Assembly (NCBI GenBank): GCA_012511975.1
Contig: JAAZEZ010000004.1
Span: forward strand, 1-32,247
Direction: 5' to 3'
From: Bacteroidales bacterium
Lineage (GTDB): Bacteria; Bacteroidota; Bacteroidia; Bacteroidales; UBA932
Length of the DNA stretch: 32,247 bases
Shown here: piece after piece, positions 24,105-32,247 of the stretch
How the letters are laid out: each line of letters starts with the position of its first letter
Position numbering within the stretch: position 1 is the first letter of the stretch
Translations under genes and position numbers: made by a program
Notes under the pieces: generated by a model
The model's input: only the letters and a program-made list of their open reading frames with translations
The model's database searches: none
What the model was told of the DNA's origin: nothing

Positions 24105-25385
24105 ATGAAACAAGACGTTCAAATATCCGCATTACTAAGGAAAGAAGAGGAGCGACAGACTCAAGGTATTGAGCTGATAGCATCCGAAAACTTTGTGAGC
24201 AATCAGGTGCTGGCAGCACTGGGTTCAGTTTGCACCAACAAATACGCTGAAGGCTATCCCGGAGCAAGATACTATGGTGGTTGCGAGGTAATAGACCAGA
24301 TCGAACAACTCGCAATCGACCGTCTATGTCAGCTCTTCGATGCTGAATATGCCAATGTGCAGCCACACTCAGGAGCGCAGGCAAATATGGCTGTCTTCAT
24401 GGTTTGCCTGAAGCCCGGTGACACTTTTATGGGCCTTGACCTGGATCATGGCGGACACCTCACACACGGTTCTCCCGTCAATATGTCCGGCATTCTCTAT
24501 AATGCAATCGGCTACCAGCTCAACCGCGAGACCGGTATGGTGGATTATGACCAAATGGAGCGCAAAGCTCTAAAATACCGCCCCAAACTCCTAGTCGGAG
24601 GTGCCTCCGCTTACTCGAGGGAGTGGGACTGGGAGAGAATGCGTGCAATTGCTGACAAGATAGGCGCCCTCTTTATGGTGGATATGGCACATCCGGCCGG
24701 ACTGATTGCTGCAGGATTGATGAATAACCCTGTAAAACATGCCCATATTGTTACCTCCACTACTCACAAGACCCTCAGAGGTCCACGTGGAGGCATAATC
24801 CTCATAGGTAAAGACTTTGATAACCCATGGGGAATTAAAACACGCAAAGGAGTGATCAGGAAAATGTCCTCTTTGATCAATTCAAGCGTATTCCCCGGCA
24901 TTCAGGGCGGTCCACTCGAGCACTGTATTGCAGCCAAGGCAGTTTCCTTCTATGAGGCCCTCCAGCCTGAGTTCAAAACATATCAGGAGCAGGTACGCAA
25001 AAATGCTTCAGCTATGGCCAAAGCATTTATCGAGAAGGGTTATCATGTGGTATCAGGTGGTACAGACAACCACCTCATGCTTATCGACTTCCGCTCTAAG
25101 TTCCCTGATTTGACCGGTAGGGTAGCTGAGACTGTACTCGGAAAGGCAGATATTACCGTTAACAAAAATATGGTACCCTTTGACAGTCGCTCCGCATTTC
25201 AGACCTCCGGTATGAGGGTAGGTACTCCCGCTATCACCTCACGCGGTTTGGTTGAAAAGGATATGGCCGGCATCGTTGACTTAATTGACAAGGTACTCAG
25301 CAATATCGATGACGATAATGTAATCGCACAGGTAAAAGAGCAGGTAAGAATGAAGATGAGCGGATTGCCGCTTAATAGGTGGTAA
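24105..25385 (+). CDS. glyA: Serine hydroxymethyltransferase
   Basis: 426 aa; [57 protein letters not shown] (PLP Lys). Confidence 0.97.
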
Positions 25386-25442: not shown

Positions 25443-25683
25443 GTTGCAAGGTGCAGGTTTCGGGGTGCAGAATAGTTTTGAGTATTTTAGAGGGAAGAGG
25501 ATAGTATTATTATGCGGCAGCAAACATTATGTTGGTGCTGCATATTTTTTTTAGAAAATCCGGTGTTTGTTCAAATTGTGAGAATTTGGGCAAAATCATG
25601 GAAATAAATTTTAGGGAGTGCGTTAAATTGACATAAACCCCATAAGTAAAACAAAAACTCTTTTAATTTGTACAGCCAAAAGT

Positions 25684-25723
25684 TAAGTGTAACTTCACGA
25701 CAGAAATCTAAGTGTAAAATCAC
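25684..25723. repeat. Two direct copies of TAAGTGTAA(C/A)(T/A)TCAC at 25-bp spacing
   Basis: TAAGTGTAACTTCAC (25684-25698) and TAAGTGTAAAATCAC (25709-25723). Confidence 0.85.
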
Positions 25724-25727
25724 ATTA

Positions 25728-26834
25728 TTACAAAGCAAACACATCCACGTAGGTTTTGATGTCACGAGGGCGTCTCAAAAAATCGACTGCCTCGCCTTGA
25801 AGCATTGTACGGCGGTTGTCATTCTCGGCCCAGTCAGTGGTGTGTGAGGCATATTGAGTAACTCTGTTGAATAGCTCCCAAACTTTCATGCTTGCTAACG
25901 CTTCCCTCGGCTTGAATCCGTGAAGACCATAGCCGGAATTTAAATAGAAATTCAACTCCTCATCATAAGGAGCAATCTTTTTCGACGACTCCTCCCCCAC
26001 AGCAAATCGTTCCAGCATTTTCGAAACTGAATGAAGTTCGCTTAAGGAGGCTCTGGTATTCATAGCTGTCCGAGCCATATCGGCAAATTTGCTGTATGAC
26101 CTACTAAGCATTTGATTGTCTTGCGGAATACTCAAGATTCCACGAAGTGATTTGTCGTCCAAAGCTGTAATCTTTGCTCTGGGGATGGAGATTTTTTCAA
26201 TCATCCCATTGGCACATACAAGACGTTCATAATATCGGCTCAATTGAATCTGTCCGAGATTCCACTTTAGAATATATGAGTTTATAAGCGTCTCTTCTCC
26301 CGGCGCAAAAGCTCTGATATCAGGAGTATTGCTTCCCATATGTAAGATTATTCCGGCAGATGCATTGCCACCCACCTCATAAGCAGTCGGAGTGAGGTTG
26401 TTGTGATCCATGAAGATCTCAGCAAGGTCAAAAAAACTCTCTGAAGTAATGAGTTCCTCTTCTACAGGAATAACGTTAACAATGGTCTTGCTCTCAGGAT
26501 GTGCCACAAGAGCCACTTTGGTCGGATTTGCGATTGAACTGGCAGCAGCGAGATAGTTGCGAAAATCACGCACACCCTCCTCGCCGGTTGCTTTAGCGAT
26601 GAAAGTCTGCTGATCTTTGGAGAATCCGGTGTATTTGTCTAAAGCTTCTGCTACGAAGTCTGTAGCAAGAACATTCGTACCTTGAACGGAAAAAACATTT
26701 CGTCCTAAATATTCTGTTTCGGAAAGGTCATCAGCGCGGCCAATATACTTGATGGTAGCACGATTGACCACCTTATATGGAAGCTGGTTATCAGTAATCC
26801 GCCTACCAAGGGCTAAAAATTCTTGTTGTGTCAT
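25728..26834 (-). CDS. DUF932-like phage/plasmid-type protein
   Basis: 368 aa; YYERLVCANGMIEK resembles the 'CTNGM' signature of DUF932 proteins; ATGA overlap with the upstream ATPase ORF. Confidence 0.55.
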   Translation of the reverse strand: MTQQEFLALGRRITDNQLPYKVVNRATIKYIGRADDLSETEYLGRNVFSVQGTNVLATDFVAEALDKYTGFSKDQQTFIAKATGEEGVRDFRNYLAAASSIANPTKVALVAHPESKTIVNVIPVEEELITSESFFDLAEIFMDHNNLTPTAYEVGGNASAGIILHMGSNTPDIRAFAPGEETLINSYILKWNLGQIQLSRYYERLVCANGMIEKISIPRAKITALDDKSLRGILSIPQDNQMLSRSYSKFADMARTAMNTRASLSELHSVSKMLERFAVGEESSKKIAPYDEELNFYLNSGYGLHGFKPREALASMKVWELFNRVTQYASHTTDWAENDNRRTMLQGEAVDFLRRPRDIKTYVDVFAL

Positions 26835-27709
26835 GGCTTTTTGATTTTTATGTTTTCAAATAGGATATCGAATTTGTCGGCATAGTTGCGCATACTTTTA
26901 CCGGCCTCAGACTGGAGTTGTCGGATCTGACGGTCCTGACTAAAACGATCTTCATTGTAAAAGACATCACCGGTCACGCTCAAATCATAGTAGAGACGCA
27001 CACCCACATCTCCACGGCGATGCTTTGAGAATAGGGCATAGCGCTCGGAATAGATGTTTTTAGGGTTCTCAAGGCGGAGCTCCATCATTGCAGTTATAGA
27101 GTGCTTAAGGCGGTTTGAGCCAATGAATGCGCCGGTCTTTGTAACCTGCTGAATGGTGAGGAATGTTGTGTTTACTTGGGCATTGTTGTCGGCTTTATTC
27201 TGCTGCTTGATGAGAGAAAGCAGCATACTCTCAGCTTTTTTCTGGGTAATGCTTTCTTCTTCCTTAATGATCCCTTGCAGTTCGTAAAATGAATCTATTG
27301 CCACGACATCCCAACCTTGCTGAAGAATCTCCGTCAGCGTCTGTAAATTATGAGAATCGACGTTGTCGTCAAAATTTGATTCCACGAAAAGGATATCAAT
27401 ATCCTGAAACTTCGGAAAACGTTGTACATAGATGGCGAGATCAATCTCGTTCATCTCGGCACTAACGAAAAGAACCTTTACCCCCGGATGCTGCTTCCTT
27501 ATATTTGACAAAAGATCCAGAATGATAGTCGTCTTACCTACTCCGGGGTCACCGATAACCATATAATTTACGCCTTTCGGCAGCCCCTTGTAGCTGCACA
27601 GCAATTCATCCAGCACAGTGCCTGTCATATAGTTCTCAAAGAGGGCCGGATCAAACCGTATCTCCCTCATTCGAACAATTTTGTCAGAAACATTTCCCAT
27701 GATACTCAC
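26831..27709 (-). CDS. RecA/RadA/DnaB-C-like P-loop ATPase
   Basis: 292 aa; Walker A GDPGVGKTTIILDLL, Walker B-like WDVVAIDSF, helicase-core-like VNTTFLTIQQVTKTGAFIGSNRLKHSITAMMELR. The start is GTG at 27709 or, more conventionally, ATG at 27700. Confidence 0.8.
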   Translation of the reverse strand: MSIMGNVSDKIVRMREIRFDPALFENYMTGTVLDELLCSYKGLPKGVNYMVIGDPGVGKTTIILDLLSNIRKQHPGVKVLFVSAEMNEIDLAIYVQRFPKFQDIDILFVESNFDDNVDSHNLQTLTEILQQGWDVVAIDSFYELQGIIKEEESITQKKAESMLLSLIKQQNKADNNAQVNTTFLTIQQVTKTGAFIGSNRLKHSITAMMELRLENPKNIYSERYALFSKHRRGDVGVRLYYDLSVTGDVFYNEDRFSQDRQIRQLQSEAGKSMRNYADKFDILFENIKIKKP

Positions 27710-27786
27710 CTTTTAATATTGCAAGTATCGGCCATCAAACTGCAATTTCAAGGCAGGAGCAGAAAAAAATCGTCAAAATATTTTCA

Positions 27787-27848
27787 CTGCCACTTTTTAG
27801 CAGTAAAAGCCATTTTCTTTGCAGTAGTGGAAAATAGAACTAACTTTG
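27787..27848 (+). promoter_or_regulatory. Promoter plus iteron element A upstream of the PD-(D/E)XK gene
   Basis: TTTG (27818-27821) - 19 nt - TAACTTTG (27841-27848) matches the Bacteroidetes -33/-7 architecture; carries CTGC at 27787 and GCAG at 27800 and 27821. Confidence 0.6.
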
Positions 27849-27864
27849 TTAGGAAAGCATTAAA

Positions 27865-29046
27865 ATGATACAAGGTGATAATTTTAAAAAACAGGTAATG
27901 GATCAAATAAAGAATTTACTTAGTCAAGTATCGATTATCAGCAAGAAAAATGCTGAAATATTAGATGCAACAGGAGGCAGATTTAATATGTTCCGAATTT
28001 GTGGTGTAGATCATTACGAAAATACACATTCAGCAATTCTCGCCGAATTCTTGAATCCAAATGGGACACACGGCTTGAAATCAAAATTTTTCGAGTGTTT
28101 TATTGAAACAGTAGGCGAACAATTTACCATTGAGGACTTCAACTGTAAAAATGCGAGAGTTCATACAGAATTTGCAATACCCGGAGGTCGGATTGATATT
28201 ATAATAGAAGATAAACAAAGGGAAAGGGCTATCATTATTGAAAACAAAATCTTTGCAGGCGACCAATGGAAACAACTAAAAAAATATGACGAATACGCAA
28301 ATAAAACATACAAAAATGAAAATTATCTAATATTATATCTGACACTGGATGGTCGTGAACCTTCCAAGCAAAGTGGCGAGGGAGTATCTTGTTTGACAAT
28401 TTCATATACAGAAACCATTATTAATTGGCTTGAAAAATGTGTTGCAATTGCTTCGCGTTTTCCAATGGTTCGAGAAACCATTATTCAATATAGTAATCAC
28501 CTTAAACAATTAACAAATCAAGATATGGACAACAAAAATAAAGAGGAGATAACGGATCTTTTATCAAAAGTAGAGAATCTGAGAGCGGCAAAAGTAATTT
28601 GTCAAAATTATTCAAAAACTTTTGATGCTATCATAGAAAAACACTTTAATCCTAAGATGGAAGAATTTGCAAAAGCAAACGGATTGGAGTATCACTATAA
28701 CCGCTGCGATGAGCAATATGTGAGTTTTATTATTAAAAATCCTAAATTGGAAGATAAATGTTGTATTTTTTTTACGTTTGAAAAGGGTCACTTTCACTAT
28801 GGATTATTCAATTATCCAAGAAAGTATAAGCTTTCTAAAGATAATAGAGAGACAATTCACAAAAAGTTGGAAGAAAAAGGAATTCAATCCCGTAAGCAAA
28901 GTGACTGGTGGCCTTTCTACGCTTATATAGACAACCTGAATATCGATATCTGGGAAAGTGATATTATTACAAGTGACAAATTTCTAAAAGCTTGTATCGA
29001 AAAAATAAAAATCATCTTAGATATTATGAAAGATATAAAATTGTAA
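27865..29046 (+). CDS. PD-(D/E)XK nuclease-superfamily protein (PDDEXK_4-like)
   Basis: 393 aa; ENTHSAILAEFLNPNGTHGLKSKFFECFI, then catalytic-like GGRIDIIIEDKQRERAIIIENKI. Confidence 0.8.
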   Translation: MIQGDNFKKQVMDQIKNLLSQVSIISKKNAEILDATGGRFNMFRICGVDHYENTHSAILAEFLNPNGTHGLKSKFFECFIETVGEQFTIEDFNCKNARVHTEFAIPGGRIDIIIEDKQRERAIIIENKIFAGDQWKQLKKYDEYANKTYKNENYLILYLTLDGREPSKQSGEGVSCLTISYTETIINWLEKCVAIASRFPMVRETIIQYSNHLKQLTNQDMDNKNKEEITDLLSKVENLRAAKVICQNYSKTFDAIIEKHFNPKMEEFAKANGLEYHYNRCDEQYVSFIIKNPKLEDKCCIFFTFEKGHFHYGLFNYPRKYKLSKDNRETIHKKLEEKGIQSRKQSDWWPFYAYIDNLNIDIWESDIITSDKFLKACIEKIKIILDIMKDIKL

Positions 29047-29117: not shown

Positions 29118-29153
29118 CAACACCCTTTGATGGCACAAAGTCAAAGGGTGTTG
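29118..29153. terminator. Hairpin, twin copy 1
   Basis: CAACACCCTTTGA-TGGCACAAAG-TCAAAGGGTGTTG, followed by CTGTATTT. Confidence 0.7.
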
Positions 29154-29335: not shown

Positions 29336-30619
29336 TTAGACCTGAGAGTTCCATTTCGGGCAAACCATACCGTTTTCATTAAAAAGTTTCTTTAATAGAA
29401 CTTCGTTAATCTTGATATTTTTTGTTTCTTTTTTGTAAGAATATAACTTGATGTCTTCAGTCTTCTTTGACTCAAGAATTGATTTGAATCGCTCCAGAGT
29501 GATCCAAGCATATCTCCTATCGTACGGTGAAATAGTTTTCCTATATACTGAAACGCGGCCAACGCCTTCCTCGTAGTAAACAAGCGGTTCAACGAGCAGA
29601 TATGATACGAGGGTGCTGCCATTCTCAATTAATTCTTTCGCGCAGAACAAATCAATGTCTCCTAATCTATCATCCTATGAATCAACTACTATAGGATTAT
29701 CGTGTTTTTCAAATTCATATCTGATTTCTTTTTCCAGTTTACCATTTCCATCTGCCTCAAAGACTACCCACCCTTTCGCAAGAAACACTCCTATATATCC
29801 AGGGCCTCCGGTTTTATAAAGAAATACCACATCATTGTTGCGACACCTTTTGATAAGGTTTGTCCTCCAAACTTCTCAATATTCACAAAGACCAAGTGCA
29901 TTTACTCCTTTAGCAAAAATATTCTTCTGCCATTCATGGTCATCGCTAAACATGTTAAAGTGGAAACTGTTACTATTAAGACGCTGATCAAACTTCACCT
30001 CGCTAACAGATGGCGACAATTCTGGTTCCTGTTCTTGTTCTGTTTCTTCAGGTAGAAGTGGATTAAACCTATTCCATAGGGTTTTAATTTTTGCTTTAAT
30101 GTCTGTTTTGCTATCATCCTGTTCTGCACCCATTACACTAGAACGCAGTACTGTGGTTATATTCTCAAAAACCCCTACGTAGTCCTGATCAGATAAGTCA
30201 AGCTTTAGCTTTCCCAATTCTGAGGAGATGGCATCTATCTGTGTATTATCAAGGTAGAAAATCAGTTTATTGAAGATTTCTGATCTCAATGCTATGATTT
30301 CTTCCGGTTCGACCTTGTTGTCATTCATTACCGCCCACATCTTGGAAATGAAATCAGCATAAACGGAGATTTTATTCTCATAGACCTTGATGTTCTTCTC
30401 ACGTGCCTCTTCGTTATTTGACTGACCTGTAAGAAGTTGGTTGGTAACAACTGCTGTAAAAACCACAGATAACACTACGGCGATTGTTTGAAAAAGCATA
30501 TCCTGTGCAGAGAATATCTTAGGCAGGATGGCGAATAGTCCTACAATGACAATAACAATCGCCAGATATATAAGTATCCTGACAGTGTTCAGAGATGACC
30601 TTTTAAATTTCTTATTCAT
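29336..30619 (-). pseudogene. Membrane-anchored coiled-coil protein with possible EVE/PUA-like C-terminal region, interrupted by two in-frame stops (TGA 29876-29878, TAG 29675-29677)
   Basis: ORFs 29876-30619 and 29336-29650 share one reading frame; the 75 codons between them read EVWRTNLIKRCRNNDVVFLYKTGGPGYIGVFLAKGWVVFEADGNGKLEKEIRYEFEKHDNPIVVDS*DDRLGDID. N-terminus has two predicted TM segments (ILIYLAIVIVIVGLFAIL, MLFQTIAVVLSVVFTAVVT). Confidence 0.72.
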
Positions 30620-30846
30620 AAGTTAATAATTTGATTTCCTTGATTATGTCTTTCAAAGGTAGCCAATTATTTCCGTTTAACATTTCAAACTTCCCCAACT
30701 AGAATCACTTAGGCTCAGTATCCACATTCTTTTCAAGCTGATACCGCAAATATATCTATCACGACTGCTAAAGTCAGGCAGTATTTATAATATGACAATA
30801 CATTATTCATGTGCTCAGGGCAATTTTGACAATTTTTGACATTTTC

Positions 30847-30878
30847 TTTGCAAAATGTAATATATTTATTACATTTGC
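30847..30878 (+). promoter_or_regulatory. higBA promoter overlapped by an inverted-repeat operator
   Basis: TTTG (30847-30850) - 19 nt - TACATTTG (30870-30877); inverted repeat GCAAAATGTAATA-TATT-TATTACATTTGC spans it. Confidence 0.7.
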
Positions 30879-30880
30879 AC

Positions 30881-31210
30881 ATGAGAACAATCATAAGAAG
30901 TATAGAATTTGATGAGTTTTACAACTCGCTACCTGTAAATGTTCAAAACAAGGTACAATATACTTTGAATATCATTGCAGAAGTCAAATTTGTACACACT
31001 AAGTTGGTAAAGAAGCTTGTGGATACAGATTTTTACGAGTTACGTATATCTGTAGGTAATGAATATAGAGTTGTCCTATTTACCATCGACCATGAAAGTT
31101 TTGTGGAAGCCCAACAGATACTTCTTTTAAATGGGTTTATGAAAAAGTCCGCTAAGGATTATAAGAAAGAGATTAAAAAAGCACAACAAATATTAAACAG
31201 TTTACAGTAA
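30881..31210 (+). CDS. RelE/HigB-type toxin (phage Gp49-like family)
   Basis: The start at 30881 gives MRTIIRSIEFDEFYNSLPVNVQNKVQYTLNIIAEVKFVHTKLVKKLVDTDFYELRISVGNEYRVVLFTID; stop overlaps the next start (TAATG). Confidence 0.88.
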   Translation: MRTIIRSIEFDEFYNSLPVNVQNKVQYTLNIIAEVKFVHTKLVKKLVDTDFYELRISVGNEYRVVLFTIDHESFVEAQQILLLNGFMKKSAKDYKKEIKKAQQILNSLQ

Positions 31211-31521
31211 TGAGACCAAAGATTGACACAGACAAACTCAAACATCTTCCTACCGCCGAGGAGATGTTTAAGAATGAGTACGGAGCGAAAGGCACTACTT
31301 CGCGTGATGAGTTCGATGCGAAGTCTCGTGCTTGGTACTATGCTGAGGTGCTGAAAAATGCCCGCAAATCGGCCGGAATTACCCAACAGCAACTTGCCGA
31401 CAAGATTGGTAAGAAGCGTGAGTATATTGCTATGCTCGAAAAAGGCGAAACTGATATGCAGCTCTCTACATTCATTATGATTGCAGATGCTGTCGGCTTA
31501 AAGTTCGCTTTGACCTATTGA
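31210..31521 (+). CDS. HigA-type XRE-family antitoxin
   Basis: Helix-turn-helix ARKSAGITQQQLADKIGKKREYIAMLEKGETDMQLSTFIMIADAVGLK, immediately after the toxin. Confidence 0.9.
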   Translation: MRPKIDTDKLKHLPTAEEMFKNEYGAKGTTSRDEFDAKSRAWYYAEVLKNARKSAGITQQQLADKIGKKREYIAMLEKGETDMQLSTFIMIADAVGLKFALTY

Positions 31522-31586: not shown

Positions 31587-31621
31587 CAACACCCTTTGAC
31601 CGACAAAATCAAAGGGTGTTG
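31587..31621. terminator. Hairpin, twin copy 2
   Basis: CAACACCCTTTGA-CCGACAAAA-TCAAAGGGTGTTG; arms identical to 29118-29153. Confidence 0.7.
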
Positions 31622-31817: not shown

Positions 31818-31931
31818 AATCTTGTTCTTTATATCAATTTCTCCACAAAGGTATGAAACAAATACTAATGAGATGTGCAGAAAAGACAATTTTGAATTCC
31901 AAATTCAAAAAATAATCAAAATTTCTGAGAA

Positions 31932-31990
31932 CTGCCACTTTTTGGCAGCGTGATTTATTTTCTTTGCAGTAGTTCAAAAAATCCTTGCAG
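31932..31990 (+). promoter_or_regulatory. Iteron element B upstream of the 32018 gene
   Basis: ACTGCCACTTTTTGGCAG palindrome then TTTGCAGTA and TTGCAGTAA; GCAG at 31945, 31966 and 31987 (21-bp steps). Shares layout with element A at 27787. Confidence 0.6.
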
Positions 31991-32017: not shown

Positions 32018-32247
32018 ATGGAAAAGAAAAAATCTACAAGAGAAATTCTCGCGAGTATGCTTGAGTGTGAAAATTTGATTGATGATTTGGGACTTGAGTT
32101 GAAAAAGAAAAGTCTGTTGGAGTGTTTTGAGGAGGTAATTGAGAGGGCGCGAAAGAATAGGGAGTTTGGTCGGGAGTATGATGAGTACTTCTGTCTTAAC
32201 GATAAATTAATTGCTGCTAAACGCTTCGAGTTGGAGACGATTGCAGA
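32018..32247 (+). CDS. Hypothetical protein, N-terminal part (runs off the right edge)
   Basis: AAAAAGGAGCATAGTTATG (AGGAG ribosome-binding site) then MEKKKSTREILASMLECENLIDDLGLELKKKSLLECFEEVIERARKNREFGREYDEYFCLNDKLIAAKRFELETIA, open to the window end. Confidence 0.7.
   Translation, partial: MEKKKSTREILASMLECENLIDDLGLELKKKSLLECFEEVIERARKNREFGREYDEYFCLNDKLIAAKRFELETIA

Follow-up and report, generated by a model that had tools for sequence, protein, structure and literature searches.

The stretch of DNA analysed here, referred to as the window, comprises 32,247 nucleotides (contig JAAZEZ010000004.1) of a Bacteroidales bacterium. Beside glyA it carries the genes for a lone RecA/RadA-fold ATPase and a DUF932-fold partner, a divergently oriented PD-(D/E)XK nuclease and further cargo genes, and it ends within the gene of an AAA+ ATPase (Table 1). 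The ATPase and partner genes overlap by ATGA at 26831-26834, and the divergent starts of the ATPase and nuclease genes lie 155 bp apart (27710-27864). Both features had been claimed in an earlier note made from the sequence of the window, as translational coupling and as a shared intergenic region, and both are present as described. The same note placed these genes in an accessory island beside glyA, and this island is real: in a related genome (G019), the operator-AAA+ unit comes directly after glyA, then an operator-WYL unit, an exonuclease gene and aspA, and the 6.4 kb of cargo corresponding to window 25.5-31.9 kb are cleanly absent. Just 3' of the partner gene, two 20-nt direct repeats (AAGTGTAA) at 25679-25723 possibly mark a cassette edge. 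A 104-aa ORF on the minus strand (29336-29650), with weak similarity to PADLOC PDC-S64 (E 0.001), is perhaps a remnant.

Table 1. Genes and sequence elements of the window, with positions counted from its first nucleotide
Feature	Position	Strand	Remarks
glyA	24105-25385		
DUF932-fold partner	25728-26834	-	368 aa; overlaps ATPase stop (ATGA)
Lone RecA/RadA-fold ATPase	26831-27709	-	292 aa; GTG start
Degenerate operator-promoter of the ATPase/partner operon	27722-27761	-	CTGCCTTGAAATTGCAG; 4.0 bits; conserved in G013
Strong nuclease operator-promoter	27782-27823	+	33.1 bits; palindrome 27787-27803; -7 box TTTCTTTG at 27814-27821
PD-(D/E)XK nuclease, PADLOC PDC-S26	27865-29046	+	393 aa
Cassette-end hairpin, copy 1	29119-29152	.	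stem AACACCCTTTG/CAAAGGGTGTT
Membrane protein, operator-driven cargo	29876-30619	-	247 aa; weak 8xMP similarity
Membrane-protein operator-promoter	30745-30786	-	23.1 bits; inside an 81-bp block kept in G013
RelE-like (Gp49) toxin and HTH antitoxin pair, cargo	30836-31521	+	
Cassette-end hairpin, copy 2	31588-31620	.	same stem as copy 1
Strong AAA+ operator-promoter	31927-31968	+	38.5 bits
AAA+ ATPase of the island core	32018-32245	+	first 76 codons, gene cut by contig end; matches G013 AAA+ start

The ATPase and its DUF932-like partner

The ATPase consists of a bare RecA core with Walker A (GDPGVGKTT) and Walker B motifs. A second stretch, VTKxGxFxGSNRLKH...KHRRG, resembles the VTK/KNRFG motif of RadA. 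The solved structures nearest to the protein are KaiC-like proteins, RecA and RadA (8rxc, TM 0.61). Profile and structure comparison agree with the earlier description of a standalone RecA-fold ATPase devoid of the DnaB N-domain and of the RadA zinc and Lon domains. A DnaB N-domain was not found in the protein; its RecA core already starts inside the N-terminal 40 residues, with no cysteine cluster and no N-terminal C4 zinc finger of the RadA type, and the C-terminal end is formed by one helix (residues 253-289), with no Lon-like domain. The RadA model TIGR00416 scores the protein at 35 bits versus a cutoff of 403. Compared with the DNA repair ATPase RadA/Sms, the fold, the Walker motifs, the VTK..G motif and the KNRFG-like stretch are thus shared, whereas the two additional domains are missing and a DUF932 partner is nearly always present. 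Sak4-like and UvsX-like RecA-fold proteins of phages (PHROG 124 and 97) have the RecA core and the use by phages in common with the ATPase of the pair, but similarity is at the P-loop level only (E 1e-6 to 1e-4). A match to mad8 (4e-9) was rejected, being limited to residues 41-127 around the P-loop.

The partner is fast-evolving (38% mean column identity) and, taken as a single sequence, does not significantly match DUF932 (PF06067, E 0.15). Of its homologues, however, 29 of 61 match DUF932 at E 0.1 or better, the best at 8.7e-7. Its predicted model (pLDDT 89.7) matches phage proteins of the DUF932 type in BFVD, with a top E of 2e-17 at TM 0.72 and a named DUF932 protein at 8e-13. On the basis of these homologue profiles and predicted folds we consider the relationship to DUF932 real, in line with the earlier designation as DUF932-like. 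The window protein has the fold of the DUF932/TIGR03299 proteins of phages and plasmids, to which its profile match is weak, but represents a divergent chromosomal branch. Solved structures gave no match to the partner model; RMI1/RMI2 and DnaK folds came up but were discarded, with E above 0.02 and TM relative to the query no higher than 0.21. Profile comparison detected no homology between ATPase and partner, and in the literature searched we found no reported function for DUF932 or TIGR03299.

Occurrence of the pair in bacteria and phages

When one genome per species was scanned, we found 73 loci with the ATPase/DUF932 pair, nearly all of them from Bacteroidota by title; the few with other titles (Opitutales, Oscillospiraceae) may reflect transfer or misbinning. 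The pair is present in gut and rumen Bacteroidales and in large phages. The earlier note had asked if the two genes travel together, and they do: of the 70 loci that could be tested, 64 have the partner directly 3' of the ATPase, and ORF-calling artefacts account for part of the remaining six. Within the genus, two of 37 genomes, that of the window included, carry the pair, which is therefore accessory and not conserved as part of a core genome.

Plasmid records contained no match to either protein. Searching IMG/VR with each window protein as a single sequence also gave no match, and our early impression was that the pair is not viral. This reading was wrong and had to be dropped, since profile searches of IMG/VR revealed 43 viral contigs with a full-length ATPase (36-46% identity). 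Among the whole viral records holding the ATPase, 30 of 35 also encode the partner, usually within about 2 kb and in two different gene orders. Both proteins are present in a 484-kb phage, which gave the sole partner match and also the best ATPase match in the annotated phage collection. In an unrooted tree of the ATPases, in which some branches are long, all bacterial sequences fall on one side of a branch with support 100/98. This argues for one transfer and not for repeated capture, so that the phage and chromosomal forms would be related by a single event, perhaps in the direction from phage to host.

The proposal of a captured phage or plasmid recombination pair, made in the earlier note, is thus well supported with respect to phages and finds no support in plasmid records, and a role in recombination is what the fold suggests. 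The pair probably acts in DNA processing. In our preferred reading it would use ATP to remodel DNA or its ends, with the DUF932 protein as the DNA- or protein-binding partner. The phage relatives might also be taken to indicate a recently captured prophage or plasmid remnant without any role in the host. This is highly improbable, as the bacterial ATPases form one well conserved group (67% mean column identity among the bacterial homologues), no structural phage genes lie beside the pair in the window, plasmid matches are missing, and dedicated operators precede the ATPase gene in 38 of 68 cases (see below). More generally, no structural, replication or mobility genes were seen among the window island genes scanned.

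A shared operator-promoter and its candidate regulator

A 49-nt repeat, which had escaped the earlier note, occurs at positions 27786 and 31931, i.e. 5' of the nuclease gene and of the gene at 32018, and represents a promoter/operator. Of all inverted repeats 5' of genes in the pair loci, the palindrome within it shows the strongest enrichment. The exact sequence TGCCA-N5-TGGCA was found 26 times in intergenic regions versus at most once for each of 59 permuted half-sites, and the enrichment is essentially confined to a gap of 5. A Bacteroidetes -7 box (T[AT]NNTTTG) is located at exactly +11 bp in 53 of the 61 intergenic TGCC-N7-GGCA sites, and the operator overlaps the usual -33 region. A weight matrix applied at 12 bits detected 193 sites versus 2 in the reversed control, covering 60 of 74 loci; because the matrix was trained on part of the loci tested, independent evidence comes from counting the pattern in whole genomes, which yielded about 60 sites versus 1 in the control (25 genomes). 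Across the loci, the palindrome precedes the pair and many cargo genes, as well as the WYL regulator gene discussed below (23/41) and the AAA+ gene (15/16). In the window, the copy belonging to the pair is degenerate, in contrast to the three strong sites (Table 1), and the remainder of the window shows no operator match above 2.3 bits. Among 61 relatives, 8 genomes contain matches to the operator-promoter. These counts lend good support to a regulon with a fixed operator-promoter. Co-regulation, considered plausible in the earlier note in view of the shared intergenic region, is upheld and extends far beyond that region.

Treating every CTGCCA-N5-TGGCAG as an operator was abandoned, since genome counts of this motif include unrelated repeats (in G072 and G073) and coding matches; promoter context was therefore required. 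In these two genomes, similar sites are unusually many (41 and 31 at one mismatch) and mostly lie outside a promoter context, e.g. GTGCCACTCCGTGGCAG. They probably belong to a different repeat family.

The commonest transcription factor in the pair loci is a WYL-WCX protein (Pfam WYL and WCX), found in 42 of the 73 loci and in 20 of the 30 with full flanks. It is also encoded in the islands of G013 (C44) and G019, and it accompanies the island clusters of operator sites in G016, G019, G030 and G036, including those that lack the pair. In Marseilla massiliensis An824, a cultured carrier, loci L073 and L079 each contain WYL together with the pair. The window itself holds no WYL gene, and that of its island would lie beyond the contig end. 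The operator half-sites vary from locus to locus, and this variation follows that of the WYL protein (Mantel r 0.48, p 0.0002, 26 loci). After correction for ATPase distance the correlation is still 0.40, while correction for WYL leaves ATPase distance with no explanatory value (-0.004). This covariation suggests that the WYL protein binds the operator. Another contig of the window genome encodes an intact WYL protein of the same family (L109 13795-14703, G000 contig C75), without an operator.

The operator might instead be read by another factor, e.g. an unlinked global regulator, with WYL being a mere neighbour. Such a reading could invoke the fixed 11-bp spacing to the -7 box, a stricter constraint than most repressor sites require, and the many copies of CTGCCA-N5-TGGCAG outside a promoter context in G072 and G073. 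We regard it as unlikely, because operator variants track WYL after control for ATPase divergence, sites are found 5' of the WYL gene itself, and in those same-genus genomes inspected in which one contig bears several promoter sites, that contig also carries WYL.

A known system likewise speaks for WYL as the regulator: the defence-island repressor BrxR, itself a WYL protein, recognises inverted repeats of 11 bp separated by a 5-bp spacer (PMC9122601), and the operators described here have the same geometry. The BrxR-family regulators of BREX/defence islands (PMC9122601, PMC9122589) further resemble our case in the co-localised defence genes and in one operator being placed before the regulator's own gene. 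Different from these systems, the present islands consist of many separate cassettes, each bearing an operator-promoter with a fixed distance of 11 bp to the -7 box, and they have the Bacteroidetes promoter type and a different core (AAA+, DEDDh). WYL may act here as a repressor, given that the operator overlaps the usual -33 region, or as an activator such as PafBC or SiwR, reported WYL regulators of genotoxic-stress genes, which the rigid 11-bp spacing would also suit.

Cargo exchange and the probable role of the island

The nuclease belongs to PDDEXK_4 (2.7e-38), has the active-site residues GGRIDI...IENK and matches PADLOC PDC-S26 at 2e-104 over residues 8-390 of 393. It belongs to this family of single-gene phage defence candidates, with the difference that the window copy sits under an island operator. 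The earlier note had considered a defence cassette formed by the pair together with the nuclease. ATPase, partner and nuclease could in principle constitute one three-gene system with a divergent promoter: they share the 155-bp region, with a strong operator toward the nuclease and a degenerate one toward the pair, and the arrangement is conserved in G013 at 90.6%. Linkage of PDC-S26 to the pair does exist elsewhere, but it is rare (5 of 73 loci); the pair usually occurs without the nuclease, and in G016 the nuclease stands under its own operator in the absence of the pair. A single system is therefore very unlikely, and the nuclease is best explained as a separate cassette that obeys the same switch and not as a subunit of the pair.

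Comparison of the window with G013, in which the WYL-exonuclease-aspA end of the island sits on another contig, showed that the 81-bp operator block is kept and that the genes on either side of it differ. The differing blocks lie between the two copies of the hairpin, whose stem occurs twice per genome in the window genome and in G013, in all cases inside the island. The hairpin is possibly a terminator and cassette boundary. Taken together, the kept block and the hairpin-flanked differences between these two genomes suggest that cassettes exchange at shared ends. In the slot of the RelE/Gp49 toxin-antitoxin pair of the window (30836-31521), G013 has a different, HTH-containing gene set.

For the operator-driven genes (76 family representatives), 180 PADLOC families were matched at 1e-5, compared with 8 for 74 control genes; many PADLOC models are redundant, so the contrast is overstated, but its direction is clear. 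Among the matches, which include candidate and generic domains, are AbiE, ShosA, PDC-S26/S23/S05/S10 and GmrSD-type proteins. Cargo of the repair type (RtcB, HAD_SAK_2) is present as well and would fit a role in stress repair. On balance we favour inducible defence, the main rival being a regulon for DNA damage or nucleic-acid repair. According to the latter, WYL would sense damage and the pair would be a RadA-type recombination helper with its loader. The resemblance of the ATPase to RadA, the RNA-repair proteins RtcB and HAD_SAK_2, the DEDDh exonuclease, and PafBC and SiwR as reported regulators of genotoxic-stress genes are all compatible with such a regulon. We nevertheless find it doubtful, since patchy occurrence (2/37 same-genus genomes), fast cargo turnover and enrichment of defence families are typical of defence and not of core repair.

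Most likely, the ATPase and its partner are a domesticated DNA-processing pair of the phage type which forms one cassette of an exchangeable defence island. That this island is chromosomal, switched by WYL and probably directed against phages, with the pair as one interchangeable cassette, is in our opinion rather probable. According to this proposal, the ATP-driven pair would be one cassette among many, most of which have a promoter of their own equipped with the shared operator. A WYL regulator encoded in the island, beside the AAA+ ATPase and the DEDDh exonuclease, would bind these operators and switch the cassettes jointly upon sensing a signal, which is probably debris of nucleic acids left by infection or by DNA damage. 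As a more speculative extension, put forward tentatively, operator-promoter and cassette-end hairpin might act as homology anchors for the swapping of defence genes in a WYL-switched immune regulon of the Bacteroidales, one cassette of which would be a domesticated large-phage ATPase/DUF932 machine turned on phages.

Taken singly, defence islands under WYL control, PDC-S26, RadA-like ATPases and DUF932 are already known. In the part of the literature searched, we found neither the ATPase-DUF932 pair of phages and chromosomes nor a Bacteroidota-wide regulon with a fixed operator-promoter. How scattered bacterial defence genes are switched on jointly is poorly known. The 34-bp promoter signature, with almost no control matches in whole genomes, offers a way to list the inducible defence repertoire of gut and rumen Bacteroidota, unnamed families included. 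In addition, a pair of large phages without assigned function is now tied to a chromosomal counterpart, so both become testable.

Some further cargo was noted in the pair loci. A gyrase-B-like protein (GHKL, Toprim) is encoded in L034 (11646-13577), and a shorter relative, in L033/L167, comes with an operator of its own. An FtsZ/tubulin-like GTPase recurs as cargo in seven loci (L058 4657-5640, L070 6957-7970 and others), some copies being operator-driven.
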